Source: Betaproteobacteria bacterium
GTDB lineage: Bacteria; Pseudomonadota; Gammaproteobacteria; Burkholderiales; Ferrovaceae
Direction: 5' to 3'
Length of the DNA: 49,470 nt
Assembly (NCBI GenBank): GCA_018971415.1
Contig: JAGXAW010000009.1
Location: forward strand, 1 to 49,470
The position numbers were made by a program, and so were the translations under genes. The notes under the pieces are model-generated. The model saw nothing but the letters and a program-made list of their open reading frames with translations. It was not told the DNA's origin and ran no database searches. This document shows positions 5,345-45,073 of this stretch, in pieces (positions within the stretch are counted from its first letter, which is position 1; every line of letters starts with the position of its first letter).

Positions 5345-6388
5345 CTAGTCAACCAATCCTTTAGCAGCAGCCACTTGACCACGGTAAGAATCAAAAATGA
5401 ACTTCAAAGCATCTTTCATGGACACTGCAGGTTTCCATTCAAGCTCATTACAGGTATTGGTGATTTTAGGGACACGGTTTTGTACATCCTGGTAACCACG
5501 ACCATAATAGGCCTCAGAGGTGGTCTCAATTAACTGAACCTGTTTTGCGCTCTCGCGATATTCTGGGTATTCCATAGCCAGAGTTAACATCATTTGTGCC
5601 AGTTCTTTGACAGAATAGTTGTTAACTGGGTTACCCACGTTATAGATTTTACCGCTGGCGACCCCGTTTTTGTTTTCAATCATTTTCATGAGGGCAGACA
5701 CACCATCATCAATATAGGTGAAAGCCCTTTTTTGAGTTCCACCATCAACGAGTTTAATGTTTTCGCCACGAACAATGTGACCAAAGAACTGGGTAATCAC
5801 GCGTGAGCTGCCTTCTTTGGCTGTATGGATACTGTCCAAACCAGCGCCAATCCAGTTAAAGGGTCTGAACAGCGTAAAGTCTAACCCTTCCTGTGAGCCA
5901 TAGGCCCAGATCACACGATCCATGAGCTGCTTGCTGCATGAATAGATCCAGCGCTGCTTTTCAATGGGACCTAACACGAGGTCGGAATTGTCTGGATCAA
6001 ATTCACTGTCCTTACACATGCCATATACTTCGGAAGTGGAAGGGAAGAGAATACGTTTTTTGTATTTAACGCAACTCCTAACGATCGGTAAATTCGCTTC
6101 AAAGTCGAGTTCAAATACGCGTAAGGGTTGCTGTACGTAGGTGGCCGGTGTGGCAATCGCAACAAGTGGCAAGACCACATCACACTTTTTGATGTGATAT
6201 TCAATCCACTCTTTGTTAATCGTGATGTCGCCTTCAAAGAAGTGAAAACGGGGGTGATCAATTAAATCATTAACACGATCACTTTGCATGTCCATGCCAA
6301 ACACTTCCCAATCAGTGGTGTTGAGGATGCGTTGACTCAAATGGTGACCAATAAACCCGTTTACCCCAAGAATTAATATCTTTTTCAT
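5345..6388 (-). CDS. arnA: UDP-glucuronate decarboxylase, stand-alone C-terminal half of ArnA
   Basis: This 347-residue short-chain dehydrogenase matches the C-terminal domain of ArnA, which oxidises and decarboxylates UDP-glucuronate to UDP-4-keto-pentose for Ara4N synthesis. It has the NAD motif [10 protein letters not shown], catalytic [11 protein letters not shown] (Ser/Glu pair) and YSCSKQ, and the late Arg of [15 protein letters not shown]. In enterobacteria this domain is fused behind the formyltransferase; here the two are separate genes 87 nt apart. I start at the second of two adjacent start codons (GTG ATG). Both halves keep their catalytic residues, so the pathway step is likely functional. 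Confidence 0.88.
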
Positions 6389-16527: not shown

Positions 16528-16569
16528 GTTACATGTAACACGGCATACCACTATCTTGTTATATGCAAC
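16528..16569. promoter_or_regulatory. Paired palindromic operator upstream of the MazE-type antitoxin
   Basis: GTTACATGTAAC (16528-16539, a perfect 12-bp palindrome) and GTTATATGCAAC (16558-16569, 10 of 12 matching) are 30 bp apart, close to three helical turns, on the same DNA face. They lie 20-60 bp upstream of the antitoxin ATG, where a self-repressing antitoxin would bind. Function is inferred from position and symmetry only. Confidence 0.55.
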
Positions 16570-16607
16570 TTCAGTCAAAGTATATGAGCACCTTTATCGT
16601 TTGTATT

Positions 16608-16637
16608 TTGTCAGAATTAAATATAAACTTCTGACAA
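16608..16637. promoter_or_regulatory. Inverted repeat overlapping the start codon of the AbiEi-type antitoxin
   Basis: TTGTCAGAA (16608-16616) and TTCTGACAA (16629-16637) are perfect 9-bp inverted arms with a 12-bp AT-rich spacer (TTAAATATAAAC) that could hold a -10 box. The last base is the A of the ATG. AbiEi-type antitoxins are known to repress their own promoters through inverted repeats, so this is a good operator candidate. Confidence 0.55.
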
Positions 16638-17233
16638 TGAGCTATCTTGCTGAAACTATCTTATCTACTGCGCAAGCTCTGCCTGAGGGCGGCTTGCTGT
16701 CGGCCAAAGAGTTCCTGCATTTAGCCTCTAGAGCAGCGGTGGATCAGACTCTCACCCGCTTGGCCCGCGAAGGCAAGTTGATACGCGTTGTACGCGGCGC
16801 TTACGCTTCACCTGTAGTCAGCCGCTTTGGTGCACGCTCCCCCTCAACCGTAGCAGTGGTCAAGGCGATTGAGTCGGCCTGCGGTGAGGTGATCGTTGCC
16901 AACGGAGCCGCCGAAGCCAATGCGCTCGGGTTGACCACTCAGGTGCCCACACGCGAGATATTCCTGACTTCGGGGCGCTCACGCAAATTGCAGCTCGGTA
17001 ATCGAACCGTTGAACTCAAGCATGGCAATCGATGGCAACTCGTTCTGGGAGCGCGTCCGGCCGGCATGGCGATCCGTGCCATTTCCTGGCTGGGGCCTGA
17101 GCAAGCATCTTCAGCACTCAAGTTTCTTTACGCCAAACTGTCACCAGCGGAGTGGGCTGCTATGCGCTCTGTACGAGCCGTTATGCCCAGTTGGATGGCA
17201 CGTGCGGTAAGCGAGGTTAGCGAACATGCTTGA
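16637..17233 (+). CDS. AbiEi-type antitoxin / DUF6088 family transcriptional regulator, intact
   Basis: The 198-residue protein begins MSYLAETILSTAQALPEGG with a winged-helix part (LLSAKEFLHLASRAAVDQTL, then LTRLAREGKLIRVVRGAYASP) and continues with the antitoxin domain (ESACGEVIVANGAAEANAL, TREIFLTSGRSRKLQLGNRT). I start at 16637 rather than the upstream in-frame codon because homology begins here and the operator-like repeat ends here. In the AbiE family this protein represses the operon and counteracts the AbiEii nucleotidyltransferase toxin encoded immediately after. The stop overlaps the remnant toxin start (ATGCTTGA). The gene looks clearly richer in GC than its surroundings, which suggests transfer. 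Confidence 0.82.
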   Translation: MSYLAETILSTAQALPEGGLLSAKEFLHLASRAAVDQTLTRLAREGKLIRVVRGAYASPVVSRFGARSPSTVAVVKAIESACGEVIVANGAAEANALGLTTQVPTREIFLTSGRSRKLQLGNRTVELKHGNRWQLVLGARPAGMAIRAISWLGPEQASSALKFLYAKLSPAEWAAMRSVRAVMPSWMARAVSEVSEHA

Positions 17234-17520: not shown

Positions 17521-20019
17521 ATGACCTTTCATAATCTGCAGGGACTCACCCTTGATGAGGTACTCACACGTCAACGCAGTGAGGGTGCCAATGAGCTCAA
17601 TTTCAGCGAAGAGCGACATTTTCTTGTTATTGCTAAAGATATTTTAAAAGATCCCATGTTCTTGTTATTGCTTGGCGCTGGATTGATTTATTTTGTCTTA
17701 GGAGATAAACAAGAAGCCACCGCTTTAATGGGTTTTGTGGTGATTATCGTTGGCGTGACCATTATCCAAGAGAGGCGAACAGAGAAAGCTTTACTTGCCT
17801 TAAGAGATTTAGCGAGTCCAAGAGCTCTTGTTATACGTGAGGGCAACGCTCAACGTATTGCTGGGCGTGAAGTGGTAGTTGATGATGTGGTGGTTCTCTC
17901 TGAGGGAGATAGAATTCCTGCTGATGGTCAAATTATAGAAGCCCATGACCTGTTCGTAGACGAATCCATGTTAACTGGTGAATCGACACCTGTAAGTAAG
18001 TTTAAAGAACAAATCGTTTATGCAGGGACGCTGGTTGTTAAAGGAAAAGCCTTAATCACTGTGACGCATATTGGTCTTCATACAGAGCTTGGTCGTATTA
18101 GTCATTCCTTAAGTGAAATCAAAGAAGAGCCATCCCCCATCCAAAAGGAAGTGAGCCAAATGACACAACGCTTAGCGCTCATGGCGGGAGTGTTGTGTAT
18201 GTTATTGACCTTATCTTATTGGATTATTATCGGTGGCTGGTTAAAGGGACTATTAGCGGGGATTACCCTAGCCATGGCTATTCTTCCACAGGAGTTTCCT
18301 GTGATATTAATTATTTTTTTAACACTGGGAGCAAGACGTATTGCCAAAGAGCGGGTATTAACAAGACGGTTAAACACCATCGAAACCCTTGGCGAGACCA
18401 CGGTGTTATGTGTGGATAAAACGGGGACATTAACCAAAAATCAAATGGTTTTATCCGGTCTTTGTGTGGGTACTGAACTCTATCATGTGCAACAACACAC
18501 TACAGAAACACTGCCTGAAACTTACCATGCGCTGTTAGAGTACGCAGTGCTCGCCAGCGATGTCCATTCACGAGAACCTATGGAGCTCTCCTTTCAACAA
18601 TTTATGAGTCAGCATCTTGGGGAAACCGAACATATTCATACTGATGGATTACTGCTCCACGAATATTCCCTTACACCAGATTTATTGGCCATGACACGTC
18701 TTTGGGACTTGTCAGTAAAGGGTAATCACACGGTTGCGGCTAAGGGAGCACCGGAAGCCATTATTGATTTGTGTCACCTGAACCAACAGGATGCGCAATC
18801 CATTATGCATGCTGTATCTGCCATGGCTGAATTGGGTTGGCGAGTTCTGGGGGTGGCTAAAGCAGAGCAAAAAATAGACCAACAGATTCCCCATCATCAG
18901 CATGATTTTGATTTTACTTGGCTGGGTTTGGTGGGATTTGAAGATCCATTAAGAGAAGGAGTAAGTCAGGCGATTACTCAATGCCATAGAGCAGGTATTC
19001 GGGTGGTGATGATCACGGGGGATCACCCACACACTGCAGCAACACTTGCCCATCAGGCAGGGATTCACCCTACCACGACGCTAACTGGCAAAGAGTTAGA
19101 GCAACTGAGCACAGCTACTTTCACAGAGCGGGTGAGATCAATAAATATATTTGCCCGTGTTTCTCCTCAACAAAAATTAAAAATTGTTGACGCTTTAAAA
19201 GCGCAAGGTGAGGTGGTGGCCATGACCGGTGATGGGGTGAATGACGCGCCTGCATTAAAATCGGCCCATATTGGCATTGCCATGGGCAAAAGGGGCACAG
19301 ATGTTGCTCGCGAATCCGCTTCTCTGGTGTTGCTGGAAGATGACTTTAACGCCATTGTCTCTGCCATCAAGCAGGGGCGAGAAATATTTTTTAATCTGCG
19401 TCAAGCACTTCTTTATATACTTTCTGTACATATCCCAGTGATTGGCTTATCTGTTCTTCCAGTATTTTTTAAGCTACCGAGTATCTTGATGCCCATGCAT
19501 ATTGCATTTCTTGAGTTACTGATTGGTCCTTTGAGTTCTATGGTTTTTGAGGCACATACGGAAGGCGAGAAAATCATGATTCAACCACCAAGGCCTGCCA
19601 CAGAAAAACTGCTGTCAAAGCATCACCTGTTCACGAGTGTGATTTCGGGGATGGTTATAACACTGATTATATTTTTGTTATTTGTCGCTTTGTTAGAGTA
19701 CGGTATCACTGACCGTGAAGCGCGTACCGTAACCTTTTTTCTATTGGTACTTAGTAATCTTGCTTATTTATTGGCTACAGAAAAAGAGCGATGCTTGCAC
19801 TTTTCAAAGAGCCAATTGTTGTGGTCAGTGGTACTTTCCACCCTTGCTATAGTCCTACTATTGATCTGTGTTCCTGATTTGTCTCAGCTCTTTTTGTTTT
19901 CTCGATTGTCCTCACTCTCTCAATTGGTGGTGGGTTTAATGGGCTTGTTATTGTGTGTTTACTATTGGCAAATTAATAAGATAAATGTGAAGTGGCTCAA
20001 CCATACAAAGCAAAAATAA
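17521..20019 (+). CDS. P-type cation-transporting ATPase (P2-like, PEEFP-type subgroup)
   Basis: The 832-residue pump has the full P-type order: N-terminal cation-ATPase domain, two helices, actuator with MLTGES (about residue 152), M3-M4 with ILPQEFPVILIIF (about 254-266), phosphorylation site DKTGTLT (Asp near 299), nucleotide domain with KGAPEAI, hinge MTGDGVNDAPALK (about 567) and a C-terminal helix set. No N-terminal heavy-metal CxxC motif or CPC motif is present, so it is not a copper, zinc or cadmium P1B pump. Related bacterial pumps usually have PEEFP in M4 and LIIDP in M6; here these read PQEFP and LLIGP. The transported ion is unknown; Ca2+, Mg2+ or H+ are options. No clear ribosome site precedes the ATG. 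Confidence 0.85.
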   Translation: MTFHNLQGLTLDEVLTRQRSEGANELNFSEERHFLVIAKDILKDPMFLLLLGAGLIYFVLGDKQEATALMGFVVIIVGVTIIQERRTEKALLALRDLASPRALVIREGNAQRIAGREVVVDDVVVLSEGDRIPADGQIIEAHDLFVDESMLTGESTPVSKFKEQIVYAGTLVVKGKALITVTHIGLHTELGRISHSLSEIKEEPSPIQKEVSQMTQRLALMAGVLCMLLTLSYWIIIGGWLKGLLAGITLAMAILPQEFPVILIIFLTLGARRIAKERVLTRRLNTIETLGETTVLCVDKTGTLTKNQMVLSGLCVGTELYHVQQHTTETLPETYHALLEYAVLASDVHSREPMELSFQQFMSQHLGETEHIHTDGLLLHEYSLTPDLLAMTRLWDLSVKGNHTVAAKGAPEAIIDLCHLNQQDAQSIMHAVSAMAELGWRVLGVAKAEQKIDQQIPHHQHDFDFTWLGLVGFEDPLREGVSQAITQCHRAGIRVVMITGDHPHTAATLAHQAGIHPTTTLTGKELEQLSTATFTERVRSINIFARVSPQQKLKIVDALKAQGEVVAMTGDGVNDAPALKSAHIGIAMGKRGTDVARESASLVLLEDDFNAIVSAIKQGREIFFNLRQALLYILSVHIPVIGLSVLPVFFKLPSILMPMHIAFLELLIGPLSSMVFEAHTEGEKIMIQPPRPATEKLLSKHHLFTSVISGMVITLIIFLLFVALLEYGITDREARTVTFFLLVLSNLAYLLATEKERCLHFSKSQLLWSVVLSTLAIVLLLICVPDLSQLFLFSRLSSLSQLVVGLMGLLLCVYYWQINKINVKWLNHTKQK

Positions 20020-20102
20020 GGTTGTAATATTTTAGGGTTCCTTGCGACTAAAGAGAGTCAATAAGACAATTTTCTTAAAATCACTAAAAAAAGGAATCAA
20101 AG

Positions 20103-20333
20103 ATGAAAAACAAAAAGTTAATTTCCGCCTTAGCAACAGCCTCATTACTTGCTGCAGTCAACAGTGCCTACGCAGGATGCGCGCCTTCTACTGACAAAAA
20201 ATGCAGTGCTAAAGTCAGTAAATGTGCTGGTAAAAACATGAAAGATCACCCTGCCATGAAAAAATGTGCTGCAAAAACCAGCTCTAAGTGTGGGGCGAAA
20301 TCAGCTCCTCAATGTGGCGCTAAAAAAATGTAA
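20103..20333 (+). CDS. Small secreted Cys/Lys-rich peptide
   Basis: The 76-residue precursor has a clean signal peptide (MKNKKLISALATASLLAAVNSAYA). The mature part of about 52 residues has six Cys, many Lys and Ala, and a loosely repeated KCxxK unit (KKCSAK, SKCAGK, KKCAAK, SKCGAK, PQCGAK). AAAGGAATC before the ATG serves as ribosome site. Such low-complexity Cys peptides are reminiscent of periplasmic metal-binding peptides, including the HvfA and bufferin precursors modified by DUF692 enzymes, but no DUF692 gene is seen here. It lies just before a 216-residue protein and an ECF sigma/anti-sigma pair, so stress-induced metal sequestration is a reasonable guess. I do not recognise it as a named family. 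Confidence 0.75.
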   Translation: MKNKKLISALATASLLAAVNSAYAGCAPSTDKKCSAKVSKCAGKNMKDHPAMKKCAAKTSSKCGAKSAPQCGAKKM

Positions 20334-20342
20334 TGGTGAGGC

Positions 20343-20993
20343 ATGATGAGCGCTATTGAAAGGCTGTATCAGGATTTTACTGAAGTAAACCTGCAAGTTA
20401 AACACCGTTTTGGTGGTATTGTTCAAGCATTAATGGGTGCGTCTCAAGCATCCTCAGCAGTGCCTGATGCCAGAAGTGAGGGTGTTCATTACCCTGATAC
20501 TGATTTCCTTGATAGGGCTACTGGCAGTCAATGCTTTATGCATCGCCACGATAGCGCTCGTCGTGACTCTTTACATATTCATTTTTTTTATCGCTGGCAA
20601 CCCAAAAGCCTGGCTTTGGATCACGCCATTACCACCCATTTGGTGGCCCTTGATTTGTCTCTTGAAGGTGAGCCCTTGGGTTGGTTTTTGGTGAATCAGT
20701 GGGTGGTGGGTGATTTTTGGCAGGAGGCTAAAACAACGCTCGATATGGCTAAAAAATGGCGGATGAGTGCACATGACACTCAGTCATCGGACTTTTTGCC
20801 TGATGCGCTGGTTGCTAACTGGTTAAACCTCGTATTGGCGATGGCCGTTAAAACGAGTTTACCTGAGATACTTGAAGAGCGTGATCAACGTATTGATGAG
20901 ATTTTAAGTCATTCCCCAAACAGAAAAATTTTGACGGATAGGCGAATTGAGATAATGGGTTATCGACCCTTTATGATTCCTCAAAGAGGTTAA
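20343..20993 (+). CDS. Conserved protein of unknown function (possibly DUF6969-like)
   Basis: The 216-residue protein has no signal peptide or membrane helix. Its distinctive block is DRATGSQCFMHRHDSARRDS then LHIHFFYRW, with several His that could bind metal. Later parts include GEPLGWFLVNQWVVGDFW and MAKKWRMSAHDTQSSDFLPD, and it ends RRIEIMGYRPFMIPQRG. The TGSQ...H.H...H.HFF pattern recalls DUF6969 proteins, but this is from memory. It begins 10 nt after the Cys-rich peptide gene and is followed 46 nt later by the sigma factor gene, so the group is probably one functional unit. Confidence 0.7.
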   Translation: MMSAIERLYQDFTEVNLQVKHRFGGIVQALMGASQASSAVPDARSEGVHYPDTDFLDRATGSQCFMHRHDSARRDSLHIHFFYRWQPKSLALDHAITTHLVALDLSLEGEPLGWFLVNQWVVGDFWQEAKTTLDMAKKWRMSAHDTQSSDFLPDALVANWLNLVLAMAVKTSLPEILEERDQRIDEILSHSPNRKILTDRRIEIMGYRPFMIPQRG

Positions 20994-21039
20994 CTTTTTT
21001 TAGATACAATGAGGTTTTACGTATTAGGTCAACCTATCT

Positions 21040-21627
21040 ATGACGATCACTGAGGACGCTTTTTTTGACCAACCGCACTTAATTGAGCCCATTCGGCAAA
21101 CCATGATTAAGTTCGCTCAATTGCAGCTTGGCGACAAGCATGCCGCTGAGGATGTGGTTCAAGAGGCGATGCTAGGCGCCTTAAAAAACAAAGCGCAATT
21201 TCAAGGAGAGTCGGCATTTAAGACTTGGATCTTTGCCATTCTTAAAAACAAGATTATTGATCTAATTCGTCAGCGCTCAAAAAGTATTGCTATTAGCGCG
21301 TTTAGTGAGGACGACAACGCCAATTTGGATGAGCTATTTGATCAACAGGGTCATTGGCAGGTTGATGAAAAACCCATGCCATGGGGCAACCCTGAACAAA
21401 CTGCTATGGACAAAGAGTTTTGGCTGGTCTTGGATCTTTGTTTAGAGAACCTCCCTAAAAAACAAGCGCAACTTTTTATGATGAGAGAGTATTTGGGCTT
21501 AGAGGTAAAAGACATCGAAGCCAGTATGGGATTAACGATGACCAATATTAATGTACTACTGTATCGAGCCCGGTTAAGGCTCCGAGAGTGTTTAGAGAAC
21601 AACTGGTTTAAACAAGGAGGGCTTTGA
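21040..21627 (+). CDS. ECF-type RNA polymerase sigma factor
   Basis: The 195-residue protein has region 2 (KFAQLQLGDKHAAEDVVQEA then MLGALKN and FKTWIFAILKNKIIDLIRQR) and region 4 with the helix-turn-helix LPKKQAQLFMMREYLGLEVK then DIEASMGLTMTNINVLLYRA. It lacks regions 1 and 3, so it is an extracytoplasmic-function sigma factor. It probably controls genes for envelope, metal or oxidative stress, the Cys-rich peptide upstream being the nearest candidate. Its stop is 2 nt before the zinc-finger anti-sigma gene, whose ribosome site (AGGAGG) lies in its last codons. Confidence 0.92.
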   Translation: MTITEDAFFDQPHLIEPIRQTMIKFAQLQLGDKHAAEDVVQEAMLGALKNKAQFQGESAFKTWIFAILKNKIIDLIRQRSKSIAISAFSEDDNANLDELFDQQGHWQVDEKPMPWGNPEQTAMDKEFWLVLDLCLENLPKKQAQLFMMREYLGLEVKDIEASMGLTMTNINVLLYRARLRLRECLENNWFKQGGL

Positions 21628-21628
21628 T

Positions 21629-21808
21629 ATGATGAATTGTCGAGAGAGCACAGCACTCTTGTCCGAGTCACAGGATAGGGCCTTGACCTTCAAGGAAAGA
21701 GTTAGCTTACGTTTGCATTTGTTTTTTTGTTCTGGCTGTACGCAATTTAAATTACACCTTCATGATATTCATTATTATTTAGGGAAGTATTTTTCCAATA
21801 AATCCTAG
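21629..21808 (+). CDS. Small zinc-finger anti-sigma factor
   Basis: This 59-residue reading frame starts ATGATG with AGGAGG 8 nt upstream and ends at TAG 21806-21808. It reads MMNCRESTALLSESQDRALT, then FKERVSLRLHLFFCSGC, with the zf-HC2/ZAS pattern Cys4 ... His30-x3-Cys34-x2-Cys37. Such proteins bind and silence the ECF sigma encoded just before them and release it when zinc or the thiols are disturbed. It has no membrane helix, so it should sense a cytoplasmic signal. It ends 3 nt from the convergent LysR gene. Confidence 0.85.
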   Translation: MMNCRESTALLSESQDRALTFKERVSLRLHLFFCSGCTQFKLHLHDIHYYLGKYFSNKS

Positions 21809-21811
21809 CCG

Positions 21812-22693
21812 TTACTCCGTTGAGAGTAACCGGTTAAACATGTCTGAAGGAAAGGCTTTATTTAAACTAATGGCGTAAAAGTTCTCTGAAACATGAGGTA
21901 ATGTGCAGTATTTTTCTAAGGTTTTTTGTTGTAACTCATCTTGAACCACTACCTCGGGTACCACTGCAACTCCCACTTTATCCCTGGCCAATAAACGTAG
22001 CATGGCCATGTCATCCACCTCGCTGTAGCGCTCTGGCCTAAAACCTAAGGATTCGCACAGAACATCAAACTGACTTCGTATGTCACTGCTAATGCCTGGT
22101 AACAGTAAGTGTAGCGATTGGCAATCTTCAGGAAAGTTAAAAGGTTTGCGTTTGCCTCTTGGTGGACCAATTAAGCTAACACTTTGTTTGGCAATTAAAC
22201 GGCAGCGCCAGTGATCTTCATGGTCTGTGGCGACAGCTTTATTGGAGAGAATAAGGTCAAGGTGATGCAGTTTAAGGCGCTCTAGAAGTTCATTTAAGCT
22301 TGCTGATTCTAAGACCAGACGAATATCAGACTCTTTAAAAATAGGGCGAATAAAATTCTCTTGGAAGTTACGTGACAGGTTCGCTACTGCACCGATTCGA
22401 ATGATTTTATTGCCACTTCCAATCCCTTGATTTAAATCATTGAGTAATTGATTACCTAAATTAAAGATCGCTTCAGCGTAGCGCAGTACTTGATAGCCTG
22501 TGTCGGTTAAGCTGAGTTTGCGATTGTTACGTAAAAATAACGGTTGACCAATTTCCTCCTCCAGTTGTTTGATCTGGGCGGAGAGGGCAGATTGGGCGAT
22601 GTGGAGCTTTTCTGCGCACTTGGTGAGATGACCTGTTTTGGCAACCTGCCAGAAGTAATACAGATGATGATAGTTGAGTTGGTTGATTTTCAT
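21812..22693 (-). CDS. LysR-family transcriptional regulator of the DAB operon
   Basis: The 293-residue protein has the LysR helix-turn-helix (YFWQVAKTGHLTKCAEKLHI then AQSALSAQIKQLEEEIGQPL) and a periplasmic-binding-like effector domain. It is divergent from dabB with about 95 bp between the starts, and that gap holds a perfect 19-bp palindrome. The layout is that of a LysR protein sensing a carbon-status signal and activating the neighbouring transporter. The N-terminus (MKINQLNYHHLYYFWQVAKTG) resembles NhaR-type regulators more than CbbR, but function should follow the neighbours. Confidence 0.85.
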   Translation of the reverse strand: MKINQLNYHHLYYFWQVAKTGHLTKCAEKLHIAQSALSAQIKQLEEEIGQPLFLRNNRKLSLTDTGYQVLRYAEAIFNLGNQLLNDLNQGIGSGNKIIRIGAVANLSRNFQENFIRPIFKESDIRLVLESASLNELLERLKLHHLDLILSNKAVATDHEDHWRCRLIAKQSVSLIGPPRGKRKPFNFPEDCQSLHLLLPGISSDIRSQFDVLCESLGFRPERYSEVDDMAMLRLLARDKVGVAVVPEVVVQDELQQKTLEKYCTLPHVSENFYAISLNKAFPSDMFNRLLSTE

Positions 22694-22788: not shown

Positions 22789-24312
22789 ATGGAGTTAATA
22801 GCGTTACTGTGTTTACATGCCTTGGCACTGATATTGTCCTATAGCCGTGAGGAGGCAATGGTTAAGCGTGCACTGTGGCCGTTGTTAATGGCATTACTGC
22901 TTGATACGCTCTTTTTGTTTAAGGCAGTTGTTCATCAAGAGGCTTCCCTGATTCTCTCTTTTGCCTTAATCACACTGGTGGAGTTTTTAACCCTGGTGGT
23001 CTTCACTTTCGCCTGGGATTATTTAGCGGGAGAGAAGAACCGCACTTATTTTCTGCGCTTAATCTTAAGCGTACTCGCCTCGGTGGTCATTTTATTGTTA
23101 AGCCAATCGCTGATAACGCTGTATTTATCCTGGTGTGTCATTGGTTTACTGGTGAATAAGCTGTTGCTGTTTTACCCTGAACGACCTCACACCCATGCTA
23201 TCGCCCATAAACACTTTTTCAATGAACTGATCGCCAATAGCCTAATGGGTGTAGGTTTTATCATGCTGGCTGTTCACTTTAGTACTCTCTCAATTCCGCA
23301 AATTTCAGGGTATTTGTCTACAGTTACTGATACTTATTCGTCAGTGGCTTTACTCTTCATTGTACTGGCCTTTTTAATTAAAACAGCCCTGATGCCTTTT
23401 CATGGTTGGTTGATTCAAGTGATGGAGGTGCCCACTCCTGTTTCAGCTTTAATGCATGCAGGGATCGTTAATTTGTCTGGCATGGTTTGGCTGAGGTTAT
23501 CTCCGTGGTGGGAACATAGCCCTTACCTAAGAGACTTTGTAGCCCTAGTGGCATTCATGAGCTTACTGCTCTCCAGTATTGTCATGTTAACCCGTGTCTC
23601 TATTAAGGTTCGCCTCGCCTGGTCCACCACAGCGCAGATGAGTTTTCTGTTATTTGAATGTGCTCAAGGATGGTATGAGATGGCTTTTATTCATCTTGTT
23701 GGTCACTCTCTGTATAAGGCACAGGCCTTTTTACTCTCTGGTAACCGTGTCAATGAACAGCCTCTTAAAAAACAGATAAAAGGCATAATGGGGTATGTCT
23801 CCTCTTCCTTCTATTCCCCTTTAATCTCACTATTTATTTCATTCGCACTGTTTGTTCTTTTTAATCAGCTTTTAAATACCCACTTTGGCTTTTATTCCTT
23901 ACCAATCGATCAGATGGTTTTCTTGTCGCTCCTAATCGCCCCAGCGCTGTGGTTAATGCAAAAAGACCAGGTGTTGAGTGTTGGTGTGAGAGTTGTTATG
24001 CAAGGCTTGTTTATTTTGATATTTATGCTGTTACACAGCCTGCTGCATCCTCTTTTTACCCATCAAGTTAATCCAACTAATTTACTCGATTACCTACTGT
24101 TGGCCCTGTTGCTCACCTATATTGTTCATTGGCTGATATTAAGTAAGCAATATTTAGCCCGCTCTTCCACCCTCAACAGCTTAGCCTACGAAGGCTTTTA
24201 TTTAGATGCTCTGTGGACCTACAGTATTCAGCGTCCCCTCAGTCGCTTTATTCAGCAATACAACCATCAACTCTCGACCTTTTTAGGAAAACTTTTACAT
24301 GAAGCCCCATAG
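22789..24312 (+). CDS. dabB: Inorganic-carbon transporter membrane subunit DabB
   Basis: DabB is a NuoL/MrpA-like proton-conducting membrane protein that forms the DAB inorganic-carbon pump with DabA. The 507-residue protein has about 13 helices and the core motif of the family, LIKTALMPFHGWLIQVMEVPTP followed by VSALMHAGIVNLSG and a later LVGHSLYKAQAFLLSG. GAGGAG sits 7 nt before the ATG. No other Nuo or Mrp subunits are nearby, and the gene overlaps dabA by 14 nt, so a role in complex I is unlikely. Confidence 0.93.
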   Translation: MELIALLCLHALALILSYSREEAMVKRALWPLLMALLLDTLFLFKAVVHQEASLILSFALITLVEFLTLVVFTFAWDYLAGEKNRTYFLRLILSVLASVVILLLSQSLITLYLSWCVIGLLVNKLLLFYPERPHTHAIAHKHFFNELIANSLMGVGFIMLAVHFSTLSIPQISGYLSTVTDTYSSVALLFIVLAFLIKTALMPFHGWLIQVMEVPTPVSALMHAGIVNLSGMVWLRLSPWWEHSPYLRDFVALVAFMSLLLSSIVMLTRVSIKVRLAWSTTAQMSFLLFECAQGWYEMAFIHLVGHSLYKAQAFLLSGNRVNEQPLKKQIKGIMGYVSSSFYSPLISLFISFALFVLFNQLLNTHFGFYSLPIDQMVFLSLLIAPALWLMQKDQVLSVGVRVVMQGLFILIFMLLHSLLHPLFTHQVNPTNLLDYLLLALLLTYIVHWLILSKQYLARSSTLNSLAYEGFYLDALWTYSIQRPLSRFIQQYNHQLSTFLGKLLHEAP

Positions 24313-26680
24313 TGAGTCACTGAAGTTAACTGAAGAGACGCTGAGTATTAGCATTAAAGAGTCGCTATCTTGTATCGCCCCTCAATGGTCTTTAACTCAG
24401 CAAATTGCAGTTAATCCTTTTTGGCATAAAACCCATCAATCCTTTAAAGCATGGACTGAAGAATTGTATGGGACCACGGGCCATTTATTAACAGGTGAAC
24501 ATCCCTTAATCAGTCAGCCCATTGACTCCGCTCTGTTAGAGACAGCGCGGGTTCATTACCATCGACTCTATAACAAAGAGGCGCAATTCGTGGCTGAGCC
24601 GAGTCCATCCTCGGTATCCATTAAAAAAACGCTTTACCATTTAATGGATGAGCGAAAATATCAGCAGCATCATTTACATGAGGCGATCCGCCTTCATATC
24701 TCACAGACCACAGCGGCCTTTGCTGATAAACAGCAAAGTCAGTGGCATGATAACTCTTCTAAGAGTTTATTTACTTTTTGGCGTAATCATCTTGATCAGA
24801 GATGGAATCTTGAGTTTCATGCACTACATCAACAAATCACTGAGCGCCTTAAGGCGCTTCCTGAAGAGGTGAATGAGGTCATTCTTGTTGTGGTTAAAGC
24901 GCTTGAATTAAGCCCCAAGCAATGGCAAAACTGGTTTCAGTTAAACCTCTTTACCTTTCCTGGTTGGGCCTCTTGGTGTGCTTACCAGGATCAATATAAA
25001 GGAGAGTCCAGCCATCAATTATTGCTGGATTTATTGGCCATTACCTTAGTTTGGGATTATTTGGTGGATGATGGTGAGCGTCACCCACAATCCGTTTGGT
25101 ATCAATGGCAGTTACAGTGGCAGAGTGTTGATAATCCCACAACACAACGATATTTGGATTTTCATTACAGTCAATTGTATTTTAAGGAGTATGCCTACCA
25201 ACAGTCGTTAATCCGTACCCTAAGCCAGAGCTACCATTCTACAGAGCAAGAGTCTGGACCTCATACTCAACTCATTTTCTGTATTGATGTTCGATCAGAG
25301 CCTATGCGACGGGCCTTGGAGGAAATGGACCCTGGTATACACACCATCGGTTTTGCAGGTTTCTTTGGTTTACCTGTGACATACCATGCCATAGGCGACA
25401 TTGAGGGTATCAACTACTGTCATGGTTTATTGCAACCCATAGCCACCATTAGGCAGAATAAAGCTGTCTCTTCTCGAGCATGGCTAAAGAGAATGCGGGA
25501 GCGCATTAATACCGCAATCAAGGTATATCAAGAGCAAATCAAATCCCATCCTTTCACCTCTTTGTTATGGGTTGAGGGAGTGGGCTTAGGCTACGCTGTG
25601 AGTTTATTAGCCAATCTCTTTAAGCACCCAACCGCTAAGATCCCCTTTAGCTATAAAGAAATAGCTAAAGAATCTCTTCTGAAACAGCTGGTGGCGGATG
25701 AGGAGAGTCAACTCACTGCGCTCAAAAACTTTTTAGTTGCAACAGGACTAAAAGTTATTAATGCACAACAAGTGGTGATTGTGGGTCACGGTGCACAAAG
25801 TGTAAATAATCCTTATTTGCATGCTTTAGATTGTGGCGCCTGTGGTGGACAGTCAGGTGCGCTAAATGCCAAGCTGGTCGCTGAAATGCTGAACACCCCA
25901 GCGTACCGCCAAAAACTCATTCAACAGGGTTTTGTGATTCCTCAGGATACACGCTTTATAGCGGCACATCACAACACTACGGCGCAAGTTATTGAGCTTC
26001 TCTCAGGGGAAGAGGATGAGGCAGGCAAACGACTGCAACAGGTGTTTGATCAAGCCGCCCAATTGCTTAATGGAGGGCAGGGGATAGATGCCTCTCAAAC
26101 ACACAGAGAGAAAACCCATAACTGGGCCCAGGTACGGCCAGAATGGGGGTTAATCAATAATGCTGCAATGATCGTTGCGCCACGCGCACGAACCAGAGGC
26201 TGTGATCTTCAAGCTCGTGTCTTTCTTCATGAGTATGAGGCGAAGCAAGACACCGATCTCTCACAACTGGAGCAAATTCTTTTGGCGCCGATGATTGTGG
26301 CCCATTGGATCAACATGAGTTACTTCACCTCACGAACGTTACCCACCTTATTTGGAAGCGGTAATAAATTACTGCATAACGTGGTGGGTGGTGATGTGGG
26401 TGTGTTTGAAGGAAACAGTGGTGATTTAAGGATTGGTCTTGCCAAACAATCCTTACATGATGGACAGACATGGTTACATGAGGCGCAGCGCCTGACAGTC
26501 ATCATTGATGCGCCACAAAACAATATTGCACATCTGATTCAAAAACATGCTTTATTGCGCTCACTGATTGATGGGGGATGGATTCATCTGTTGAGCTGGC
26601 AGGGTGAGTCTTTTTATCAGTATAAATACGCCTCTTGGATTCCCTTTACCAAGAATGAGACGCACAGGAGAGAGTCATGA
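24299..26680 (+). CDS. dabA: Inorganic-carbon transporter catalytic subunit DabA (DUF2309)
   Basis: DabA is a zinc protein resembling beta-carbonic anhydrases that is thought to hydrate CO2 in one direction when coupled to DabB. The 793-residue protein has the Cys-Asp pair in FCIDVRSEPMRRALE (about residues 327-341), the His in VIVGHGAQSVNNPY and the Cys in ALDCGACGGQSGALNA (about 495-520), the four zinc ligands. It lacks membrane helices. Its ATG overlaps the end of dabB and its stop overlaps the next ATG, so the three genes are translationally coupled. Confidence 0.94.
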   Translation: MKPHSESLKLTEETLSISIKESLSCIAPQWSLTQQIAVNPFWHKTHQSFKAWTEELYGTTGHLLTGEHPLISQPIDSALLETARVHYHRLYNKEAQFVAEPSPSSVSIKKTLYHLMDERKYQQHHLHEAIRLHISQTTAAFADKQQSQWHDNSSKSLFTFWRNHLDQRWNLEFHALHQQITERLKALPEEVNEVILVVVKALELSPKQWQNWFQLNLFTFPGWASWCAYQDQYKGESSHQLLLDLLAITLVWDYLVDDGERHPQSVWYQWQLQWQSVDNPTTQRYLDFHYSQLYFKEYAYQQSLIRTLSQSYHSTEQESGPHTQLIFCIDVRSEPMRRALEEMDPGIHTIGFAGFFGLPVTYHAIGDIEGINYCHGLLQPIATIRQNKAVSSRAWLKRMRERINTAIKVYQEQIKSHPFTSLLWVEGVGLGYAVSLLANLFKHPTAKIPFSYKEIAKESLLKQLVADEESQLTALKNFLVATGLKVINAQQVVIVGHGAQSVNNPYLHALDCGACGGQSGALNAKLVAEMLNTPAYRQKLIQQGFVIPQDTRFIAAHHNTTAQVIELLSGEEDEAGKRLQQVFDQAAQLLNGGQGIDASQTHREKTHNWAQVRPEWGLINNAAMIVAPRARTRGCDLQARVFLHEYEAKQDTDLSQLEQILLAPMIVAHWINMSYFTSRTLPTLFGSGNKLLHNVVGGDVGVFEGNSGDLRIGLAKQSLHDGQTWLHEAQRLTVIIDAPQNNIAHLIQKHALLRSLIDGGWIHLLSWQGESFYQYKYASWIPFTKNETHRRES

Positions 26681-43516: not shown

Positions 43517-44938
43517 TTATTTATGGGCAACGTCTAATTTATCGACGGTATCAAATTCAAATTTGATTTCCTTCCAGGTTTCCATTGCAATACGCAATTC
43601 TGGAGAATGTTTGGCCGCCTCAGTGAGAACGGTTTTGCCTTCTTTTTCGATGGCAACTCCACGGTTACGCGCTTCAACGCAGGCCTCTAATGCCACGCGG
43701 TTGGCTGCCGCACCAGCAGCATTACCCCATGGGTGACCTAAGGTACCACCACCGAATTGAAGTACTGAGTCGTCACCGAAAATATTCACCAAAGCTGGCA
43801 TGTGCCACACGTGAATCCCTCCGGAGGCGACCGGCATAATGCCCGGCATCGCGCCCCAGTCTTGGTCAAAGAAGATACCTCGTGAGCGATCTTCTTTGAT
43901 ATAACTCTCGCGCATTAAATCAATCCAGCCTAAGGTGGCTGCACGATCACCTTCAAGTTTACCCACCACTGTTCCTGAGTGCAGGTGGTCCCCCCCTGAC
44001 AAACGCAGGATTTTGGTTAACACTCTAAAGTGAATACCATGGTGTGGGTTACGGTCTAAAACAGCGTGCATGGCGCGGTGAATGTGTAGCAATACACCGT
44101 TATCACGGCACCAGTTAGCAAGGCCAGTGTTGGCACAAAAACCGCCGGTGATGTAATCATGCATAATAATCGGAGCGCCAATCTCTTTAGCGTATTCAGC
44201 CCGTTTGTACATTTCCTCAGGCGTCGGGGCAGTCACATTTAAATAGTGACCTTTGCGCTCACCGGTTTCACGTTCTGATTTATGAATGGCTTCCATGACA
44301 AAGTCAAAGCGTTGACGCCAGCGCATAAAAGGTTGGCTATTGACGTTTTCATCATCTTTGGTGAAATCCAGACCGCCGCGTAAACATTCATAGACAGCGC
44401 GGCCATAGTTTTTAGCGGACAAACCGAGTTTGGGTTTGATGGTACAGCCCAACAGTGGGCGACCATATTTATTCATTACATCCCGTTCAACTTGAATACC
44501 ATGAGGTGGACCACCGCAAGTCATGACGTAGGCGATAGGAAAGCGAACATCCTCTAAACGCAGTGCGCGAATGGCTTTAAAGCCAAATACATTACCCACT
44601 AATGAAGTAAACACGTTAACCACCGAGCCCTCTTCAAAGAGGTCAATGGGGTAGGCAATAAAAGCATAGAAACAGGTGTCATCACCTGGGACATCTTCAA
44701 TGTGATAGGCGCGACCTTTATAGTGATCAAGGTCGGTTAATAAATCGGTCCACACCGTGGTCCAGGTACCCGTGGAGGACTCAGCAGCCACAGCTGCGGC
44801 GGCTTCTTCACGGTCAACTCCTGCTTGGGGGGTGATTTTAAAACAGGCTAAGATATCTGTGTCTTTAACAGCATAGTTAGGTTCCCAATAGGTACTGCGG
44901 TATTCTTTTACGCCGGCGCTATACTTTTTCCCTGCCAT
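43517..44938 (-). CDS. cbbL: Form I RuBisCO large subunit
   Basis: The 473-residue protein is the CO2-fixing subunit. Active-site landmarks are [20 protein letters not shown] (catalytic Lys), [20 protein letters not shown] (the carbamylated Lys with its Asp-Glu), [21 protein letters not shown] and [13 protein letters not shown] start at [13 protein letters not shown] with GGAGAG 5-6 nt upstream; this gives the exact usual length of form IA enzymes. It heads the minus-strand operon cbbL-S-Q-O-fbp-prk-gph-fba-tkt. No cso carboxysome genes are present. Confidence 0.98.
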
Positions 44939-45073
44939 GGTCTCTCTCCTCAATGGTGATTCAAATAAAGATGTGTCGCCTACATATGTTTTTTTTATCT
45001 GTAGGTTTTAAGATGTTATGGAAATAACAATAGCGAGAAAAAACTATAAGGTAAAGTAAGACTTTTTGATGTT

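Follow-up and report, generated by a model that had tools for sequence, protein, structure and literature searches.

Bacteria answer copper stress with exported cysteine peptides that are modified by enzymes, the bufferins. Metallothioneins and copper storage proteins, likewise small and rich in cysteine, could sequester metal, and in the Gig system of Cupriavidus metallidurans, which copper and gold induce, GigA and GigB are an MNIO enzyme (DUF692) and its partner. Here we compare with these systems a cassette of four forward-strand genes in a 49,470-nucleotide stretch of a betaproteobacterial genome (GenBank assembly GCA_018971415.1, contig JAGXAW010000009.1; this whole stretch is called the window). 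Open reading frame (ORF) translation and profile scans assigned to positions 20103-21808 a Cys-repeat peptide, a protein of the family DUF6969 (PF22308), an extracytoplasmic function (ECF) sigma factor and a zf-HC2 anti-sigma factor. The pairing of the peptide with DUF6969 is real and conserved, and it is undescribed in the literature searched; the cassette resembles bufferin operons, yet lacks the enzyme that defines them.

According to excerpts of the sources, from which all literature is cited here, bufferins (Buf1/DUF2282, Buf2 and Buf_EGKCG/oxazolin) and captophorins are MNIO-modified RiPPs (ribosomally synthesized and post-translationally modified peptides), with occasional cytochrome c and FGE-sulfatase fusions among the bufferins (PMC12452194). 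MNIO substrates include Lys-Cys and Cys-Lys precursor groups (PMC12668002). Caulobacter SigF takes part in the heavy-metal response, binds the sequence GTAACC-N16-CGAA and drives DUF2282-DUF692-DUF2063 operons (PMC3511200). The gigPABT-rpoQ-rsqA cluster of C. metallidurans, which is induced by copper, has an ECF/anti-sigma pair adjoining a small putative periplasmic Cys peptide (PMC10304878).

The original prediction, made from the DNA letters, had seen a bufferin-type layout in the window, and the order of peptide then partner and the presence of an ECF pair bear this out. As in bufferin operons, a Sec-type Cys peptide is encoded first (signal peptides, including that of the window peptide, were judged by eye) and a predicted cytosolic partner next; the peptide gene was upstream in 30 of the 32 positive loci described below. 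The ECF factor goes with a computationally identified promoter of the GTAA-N16-CGA type, as for Caulobacter SigF (PMC3511200), and the cytochrome and FGE fusions of bufferins are echoed by Cys-repeat/cytochrome proteins and FGE-like neighbours of DUF6969. In contrast to bufferin operons, the cassette has DUF6969 instead of MNIO, DUF2063 and DUF2282, and its anti-sigma factor is a soluble zf-HC2 protein of 59 residues, not NrsF. It shares with Gig the ECF/anti-sigma pair beside a small Cys peptide, whereas the DoxX-related GigT and the predicted membrane-bound anti-sigma factor of Gig are missing from it, as are GigA and GigB. Unlike metallothioneins and copper storage proteins, the window peptide is predicted to be exported, is Lys-rich with regularly spaced single cysteines, has no Pfam match and comes with a dedicated-looking cytosolic partner.

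Co-occurrence of Cys-repeat genes and DUF6969

DUF6969 was found in 5 of 31 related genomes (the window genome G000, its congeners G002 and G003, and G018 and G029), in 20 of 398 genomes sampled from the phylum and in 24 of 399 sampled from the order, the last spanning 14 of 159 genera. These sets supplied 42 loci, including the window and two sister loci. With a regular-expression detector, a Sec-like Cys-repeat ORF was detected within 1.5 kb of DUF6969 in 32 of the 42 loci, as compared with 4 of 100 control windows (3.6 kb each, from 20 stretches of 19 DUF6969 genomes); a second, stricter detector gave 23 of 42 and 2 of 100, respectively. The nearest Cys-repeat ORF was on the DUF6969 strand in all 32 positive loci, 30 times upstream and twice downstream. 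Every one of the 24 DUF6969 genomes of the order sample had a Cys-repeat gene; in 23 of them it shared the contig with DUF6969, no further away than about 2.5 kb, and in G528 it was on other contigs.

A search of the DNA for the pattern NPC-x3-NPC (first x Ala or Gly) returned 19 of the 399 order genomes, 16 of which were DUF6969-positive (Fisher p 4.6e-20); the other three were G444, with three sites, and G473 and G733, with one each. The stricter pattern NPCAAKNPC occurred in 5 of the 398 phylum genomes, and each of these was one of the 20 DUF6969-positive genomes (Fisher p 1.9e-7). Both tests ignore genome relatedness, and 5 of the 24 positive order genomes belong to one genus (g25). Nine of the 20 phylum-sample genomes with DUF6969 had no MNIO match, and in 6 of these 9 a Cys-repeat ORF was present beside DUF6969.

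In a set of named genomes, comprising the best 80 of 521 confirmed DUF6969 relatives, a Cys-repeat ORF was found within 2.5 kb in 57 of 80 loci and in 3 of 60 control windows of 5.6 kb (a looser count of 60 of 80, since superseded, included frame artefacts). In 44 of the 57 loci the nearest ORF preceded DUF6969 on its own strand; on the opposite strand it lay upstream in 12 cases and downstream in one. The opposite-strand cases seen in the looser count were largely alphaproteobacterial by title. The original prediction had let its case depend on the recurrence of these genes in other genomes, and the pair does recur, well above the control frequency. We regard its reality as practically certain.

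Neighbours within 4 kb in the 80 named loci, identified from single scanned members or by eye, were a Sulf_transp-like membrane protein (16 loci), a zinc-finger anti-sigma factor (15), an ECF factor (13), thioredoxin-like, DsbD-like and FGE-sulfatase-like proteins (11 each), and DUF2282-like (8) and MNIO-like (7) proteins. In a looser search that started from the proteins of the window itself, 18 of the 80 loci gave ECF relatives, 17 gave zinc fingers and 12 gave both. A secreted protein with an FGE-sulfatase domain (PF03781) is encoded beside DUF6969 at L022:2385-3254, with look-alikes in 11 of 80 loci. DUF6969 proteins also occur in 168 plasmid records, and two plasmid regions were examined, one of A. 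lipoferum 4B and one of S. meliloti 1021. On pSymA (L120), the symbiotic plasmid of the latter, DUF6969 is preceded on its own strand by a short Cys-repeat ORF (PCAAGAPCSAAAPCA) near 5743, at a distance of about 260 nt; as S. meliloti is well studied in the laboratory, this locus is a possible test bed.

The Cys-repeat proteins

The window peptide carries the repeats KCSAK, KCAGK, KCAAK, KCGAK and QCGAK, and cleavage after ...SAYA (by eye) would leave a mature form of 52 residues, of which 6 are Cys and 13 Lys. At E<=1 the peptide matched no family in Pfam, DUF2282 included, or in NCBIfam. Counting the window genome, the peptide was found in 3 of the 31 relatives (G000, G002 and G003; orthologues 77% identical), which are the three of this genus that also carry DUF6969. 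Elsewhere NPCAAK repeats are common beside DUF6969, and NPCGPKK, KCAPKC, CGAKCGAK and EGCCAAEGC also occur; KC or CGAK types like that of the window were seen at L038, L151, L156 and L160. The last locus (genome G536) combines an ECF factor, a KC peptide, a KC-repeat cytochrome and a DUF6969 protein with window-like motifs (HRH...HIHFF). Longer partners have their repeats around a cytochrome, which is of the SoxA/TsdA type (PF21342) in L041, L081 and L061; a Cytochrome_P460 domain scored above the cut-off in L107 and below it in L116. Long NPC-repeat proteins of alphaproteobacterial loci, L107 and L116 among them, are often encoded on the opposite strand upstream of DUF6969.

Distribution within the genus

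The order of all four genes is conserved in two of the three sister species, G002 and G003, the third being G001. No MNIO match (PF05114) was obtained in G000 (93% complete) or G003 (98% complete), and given this completeness the enzyme is likely to be absent from G000. The original prediction had remarked that DUF692 is not in the cassette; the genome-wide check of G000 for DUF692 and DUF2063 was empty as well. MNIO is present in 18 of the 31 relatives, and in G001 and G002 it lies at loci other than the cassette. Among the four genus members, G001 and G002 each have one DUF2063 gene (PF09836), beside MNIO, and G000 and G003 have none. Both G001 and G002 hold, away from the cassette locus, a complete Buf1 (DUF2282-like)-MNIO-DUF2063-DoxX operon (DUF2282 and DoxX by eye). 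The cassette is therefore found alone in G000 and G003 and together with a bufferin operon in G002, and the bufferin operon is found alone in G001. At the G001 locus DUF6969 is broken into pieces and no match to the peptide was obtained; what can be made out of it by eye is a remnant of the start. The ECF and zinc-finger genes are intact. This joint decay ties the peptide to DUF6969.

A promoter in common with bufferin operons

The sequence TGTAAT-N16-CGACTA precedes the peptide gene in G000, G002 and G003 and the Buf1 operons in G001 and G002, and a TGTAAG variant precedes the peptide remnant of G001. The site upstream of the window peptide (Table 1) is the only one of its pattern in the 1.52-Mb G000 assembly. 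The pattern TGTAA[TGC]-N16-CGACTA occurred once in the window, as compared with a mean of 0.018 in mononucleotide shuffles of the window and none in 400 kb of control DNA. It occurred 20 times in 80 DUF6969 loci (mean of mononucleotide shuffles 0.1) and 9 times in 12 MNIO loci. For 13 of the 23 distinct sites in the DUF6969 sets, the start of a Cys-repeat ORF lay within 700 nt on the same strand, which was the case for 77 of 2000 random positions. By eye, the other ten sites lie before bufferin-type (DUF2282-like or MNIO) ORFs in three cases, thioredoxin-like genes in three, a zinc-finger gene in one and an ArsM-like gene in one; the remaining two (L052, L059) precede unrelated genes.

A further site in G002 precedes ArsS (TIGR04167, 455 bits, cut-off 300), and sites in G001 and G002 precede genes for an ArsM-like methyltransferase (at L203 scanned, below the curated cut-offs; at L207 by likeness). 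Another G001 site, before a phosphorylase-like gene, is perhaps due to chance. ECF-type promoters thus stand before ArsM-like and radical-SAM ArsS genes at L203, L207 and L209 of these two species. Site positions suggest that arsenic or thiol metabolism may belong to the same regulon; our literature search returned no paper on a link between ArsS and a sigma factor.

In the tree of ECF factors, DUF6969-linked and MNIO-linked members stand together in one 22-row clade (support 100/99), and an ECF gene was found within 1.6 kb of MNIO in 7 of the 31 relatives. The putative promoter 5' of the peptide gene and the mixed clade both support the earlier proposal that an ECF pair controls the Cys peptide, and we consider that the operon is very probably under such control. 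The earlier reading of the locus as a metal or thiol stress unit was strengthened by the promoter being shared with Buf1 operons, ArsS and ArsM-like genes in the sister species. A role in this kind of stress appears likely to us, mainly because motif and targets resemble those of Caulobacter SigF.

The DUF6969 family

The 216-residue protein, to which the original prediction had assigned a role not yet described, matched PF22308 over model positions 33-199 of 201 (106.6 bits, cut-off 27, E 1.7e-30). In a body of literature that lacks most subscription papers, we found no paper containing DUF6969 or PF22308 and no relevant one for the NPC/KC motif strings. Since no signal peptide was seen in the protein, it is presumably cytosolic. 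The H.H...H.HFF block noticed earlier is present (HRHDSARRDSLHIHFF). An alignment of 22 diverse members including that of the window (A1, which excludes L018 as a fragment and L024 and L035 as near-duplicates) revealed invariant P51, H67, H69, H78, H80, H99, F115, N118, V121, R180 and D181; over 67 sequences H49, D54, D57, Q63, R84, W120 and W160 were invariant as well, and D181 and V121 nearly so. Because of this conserved His set, DUF6969 is expected to hold a metal and is probably a cytosolic metalloenzyme. The window protein belongs to a divergent branch, with HRH...HIHFF where others have HAH...HGHFH, and is 21-28% identical to the 19 members of A1 outside its genus; L160 bridges this branch and the main family (by eye).

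AlphaFold models of the window protein (pLDDT 82, pTM 0.83) and of its L041 relative (pLDDT 93, pTM 0.90) contain five consecutive strands with the HxH pairs in or next to them, plus helices. Foldseek found no match to either model in the PDB at E<=0.001. VIA-align gave best Z scores of 2.9 (root-mean-square deviation 3.3, 69 aligned) and 3.0 (5.4, 81 aligned) for the two models, a BFVD structure search with one model returned nothing usable, and comparison by sequence with solved structures gave a single chance match (E 0.5). The missing structure match is no evidence of a new fold, and a shared fold is not claimed. Profile comparison by hhalign of 38 DUF6969 with 8 MNIO sequences gave a probability of 0.1% over 15 columns, and DUF6969 thus shows no profile similarity to the MNIO superfamily. 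A phage or defence origin was rejected: there was no PADLOC match, no phage record had a DUF6969 protein at E<=1e-5, and PHROG matches were at chance level only.

Possible function of the cassette

We give about even chances to the explanation that the locus is a bufferin-like envelope stress cassette in which DUF6969 acts on the Cys-repeat precursor. The soluble zinc-finger anti-sigma factor would let go of the ECF factor when metal(loid) or thiol stress sets in, and the freed ECF factor would start the operon at TGTAAT-N16-CGACTA. The Sec-targeted precursor and DUF6969 would be made together, and DUF6969, holding metal by its His set, would act on the precursor cysteines in the cytosol before export, possibly by modifying them post-translationally in the way that MNIO enzymes modify bufferins. 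Once mature, the peptide may bind metal or reactive species in the periplasm and so buffer metal or electrophiles. Because the regulators lie inside the operon, the latter would also feed back on its own ECF factor.

Computed features behind this explanation are the co-occurrence, the gene order, the promoter and ECF clade in common with bufferin operons, the lack of an MNIO match and the joint decay. The tight order from precursor to DUF6969 gene suggests that DUF6969 acts on the precursor, which is the opposite of an unmodified peptide. Of the earlier idea of a distinct, unmodified metal-buffering system, the bufferin-like unit without DUF692 is supported and the unmodified state of the peptide is not. 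That DUF6969 modifies the peptide has, from sequence comparison, slightly less than an even chance in our judgement. More tentatively still, DUF6969 may be the founding family of a non-MNIO, metal-dependent type of peptide-modifying enzyme whose fold is still to be solved, with Sec-exported proteins of the NPC, KC and CGAK types as substrates, some fused around c-type cytochromes. Such proteins would amount to a new metallophore class of ribosomal origin, spread across Pseudomonadota and sharing one ECF regulon with the bufferins. If true, a second, independently built solution would exist behind the same ECF switch, and the widespread Cys-repeat secreted proteins, including those built around cytochromes, would likely have a common purpose. 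DUF6969, with no function assigned so far, gains a concrete hypothesis, namely a mass change of the precursor.

Several observations weigh against this explanation. The regular-expression detector was written after examples had been seen, and it found no Cys-repeat ORF in 23 of the 80 named and 10 of the 42 sampled loci. Among these ten, NPC repeats were found at the edge of the locus in L018 and L145, on the other strand at a distance of 1.6 kb in L021, and on other contigs in L026 and L146, and EGCC repeats were seen by eye in L031; L019, L022, L024 and L029 show no Cys repeats, and A. lipoferum 4B (L119) has no Cys-repeat ORF within 6 kb. Genome G444 (99% complete) has NPCAAKNPC repeats at G444:C7:31213-31347 and no DUF6969 match, so that its Cys-repeat gene may be an orphan or may have a partner that went unrecognised. 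The 12 + 1 opposite-strand cases of the named set speak against a single fixed operon plan. Promoter counts over 15 whole genomes were weak, with 20 sites for the pattern and 16 for its reverse (10 and 1 in the genus), and the argument therefore rests on the position of the sites relative to genes. Several partners elsewhere have a cytochrome c domain, so that DUF6969 could serve something besides Cys modification, and its models match no known enzyme fold in the PDB structure searches. The stress signal, the metal in DUF6969, the modification and the ligand of the peptide are inferred from comparison.

The same co-occurrence, gene order and promoter would be expected if DUF6969 were a dedicated chaperone or metal loader, which binds the precursor in the cytosol and keeps its thiols reduced or loads metal, the peptide being exported unmodified as a periplasmic metal/thiol sink; this comes close to the original prediction. 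Thioredoxin-like and DsbD-type genes near DUF6969 (11 of 80 loci each) and the promoter before thioredoxin-like genes suggest such thiol-redox upkeep. However, the invariant set of His, Asp, Asn, Arg and Trp residues is, in our view, more typical of a catalytic or metal site than of a binding groove; the fold evidence favours neither. We consider a chaperone or loader unlikely, although it fares best among the alternatives.

Alternatively, DUF6969 might help to mature secreted thiosulfate/sulfane-sulfur or cytochrome proteins, the Cys repeats carrying sulfur and not metal. The SoxA/TsdA-type cytochrome (PF21342) and Cytochrome_P460 domains of some partners would fit, as would L034-L036, L155 and L158, a different, sulfur-related setting of the pair, where an NPCGP-type peptide and DUF6969 are flanked by YeeE-type membrane genes and the gene of a secreted rhodanese, several of these loci also having an ArsR-like gene (domain scans covered one rhodanese, that of L034, PF00581, and one Sulf_transp protein, that of L111, PF04143; others by eye). 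This sulfur or haem module is improbable: neither CxxCH nor a cytochrome domain is present in the window peptide and in many others, the window cassette has no YeeE or rhodanese gene, and the promoter is common with bufferins and ArsS, not with sulfur oxidation.

A bufferin operon that has lost its MNIO gene, and is now unmodified or dead, would account for the likeness of the KC motifs to the Lys-Cys repeats of MNIO substrates (PMC12668002). This possibility is largely refuted and very improbable, since G002 holds both the complete bufferin operon and the cassette, DUF6969 is intact and not similar to MNIO, and the pair persists in 6 of 9 DUF6969 genomes without MNIO. Finally, although roughly a quarter of the loci lack a detected Cys-repeat ORF, the chance that peptide and DUF6969 are unrelated neighbours is close to nil in view of both Fisher values (uncorrected for genome kinship), the shared strand in all 32 positive loci and the spread of DUF6969 over 14 genera of the order sample.

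Organization of the locus and neighbouring genes

The four genes foreseen by the original prediction were all recovered at their positions (Table 1), including the zinc anti-sigma factor. The ECF factor matched Sigma70_r2 and Sigma70_r4_2 in Pfam and TIGR02943 in NCBIfam (236 bits, cut-off 162). The anti-sigma factor scored 30.5 bits against zf-HC2 (cut-off 22.2) and 70.1 bits against antisigmaE, NF052368 (cut-off 50); no long hydrophobic segment was seen by eye, which fits a soluble anti-sigma factor of the ZAS (zinc-binding anti-sigma) type. The P-type ATPase gene is syntenic in G002 and G003 and absent from the corresponding region of G001. Its membership of the unit is uncertain, because the promoter lies 3' of it.

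Table 1. Positions of the cassette and its flanking genes in the window.
Feature	Position	Strand	Basis or remark
P-type cation ATPase, directly upstream	17521..20019	+	Pfam and NCBIfam
Putative ECF promoter, TGTAAT-N16-CGACTA	20023..20050	+	52 nt 5' of peptide start
Sec-type Cys/Lys-repeat peptide, 76 aa	20103..20333	+	Translation; signal by eye
DUF6969 protein (PF22308), 216 aa	20343..20993	+	Pfam 106.6 bits
ECF sigma factor, TIGR02943 type	21040..21627	+	Pfam and NCBIfam
Soluble zf-HC2 anti-sigma factor, 59 aa	21629..21808	+	PF13490; NF052368 antisigmaE
LysR gene, convergent, closing the unit	21812..22693		

Upstream of these genes, positions 16556-17233 encode a DUF6088/AbiEi-antitoxin-like protein (PF19570, E 3e-22). 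Adjoining the LysR gene, a Proton_antipo_M protein followed by DabA (PF10070, 636 bits) at 22789-26680 constitutes a DAB-type inorganic carbon pump, and the same genome encodes RuBisCO at 43517-44953.

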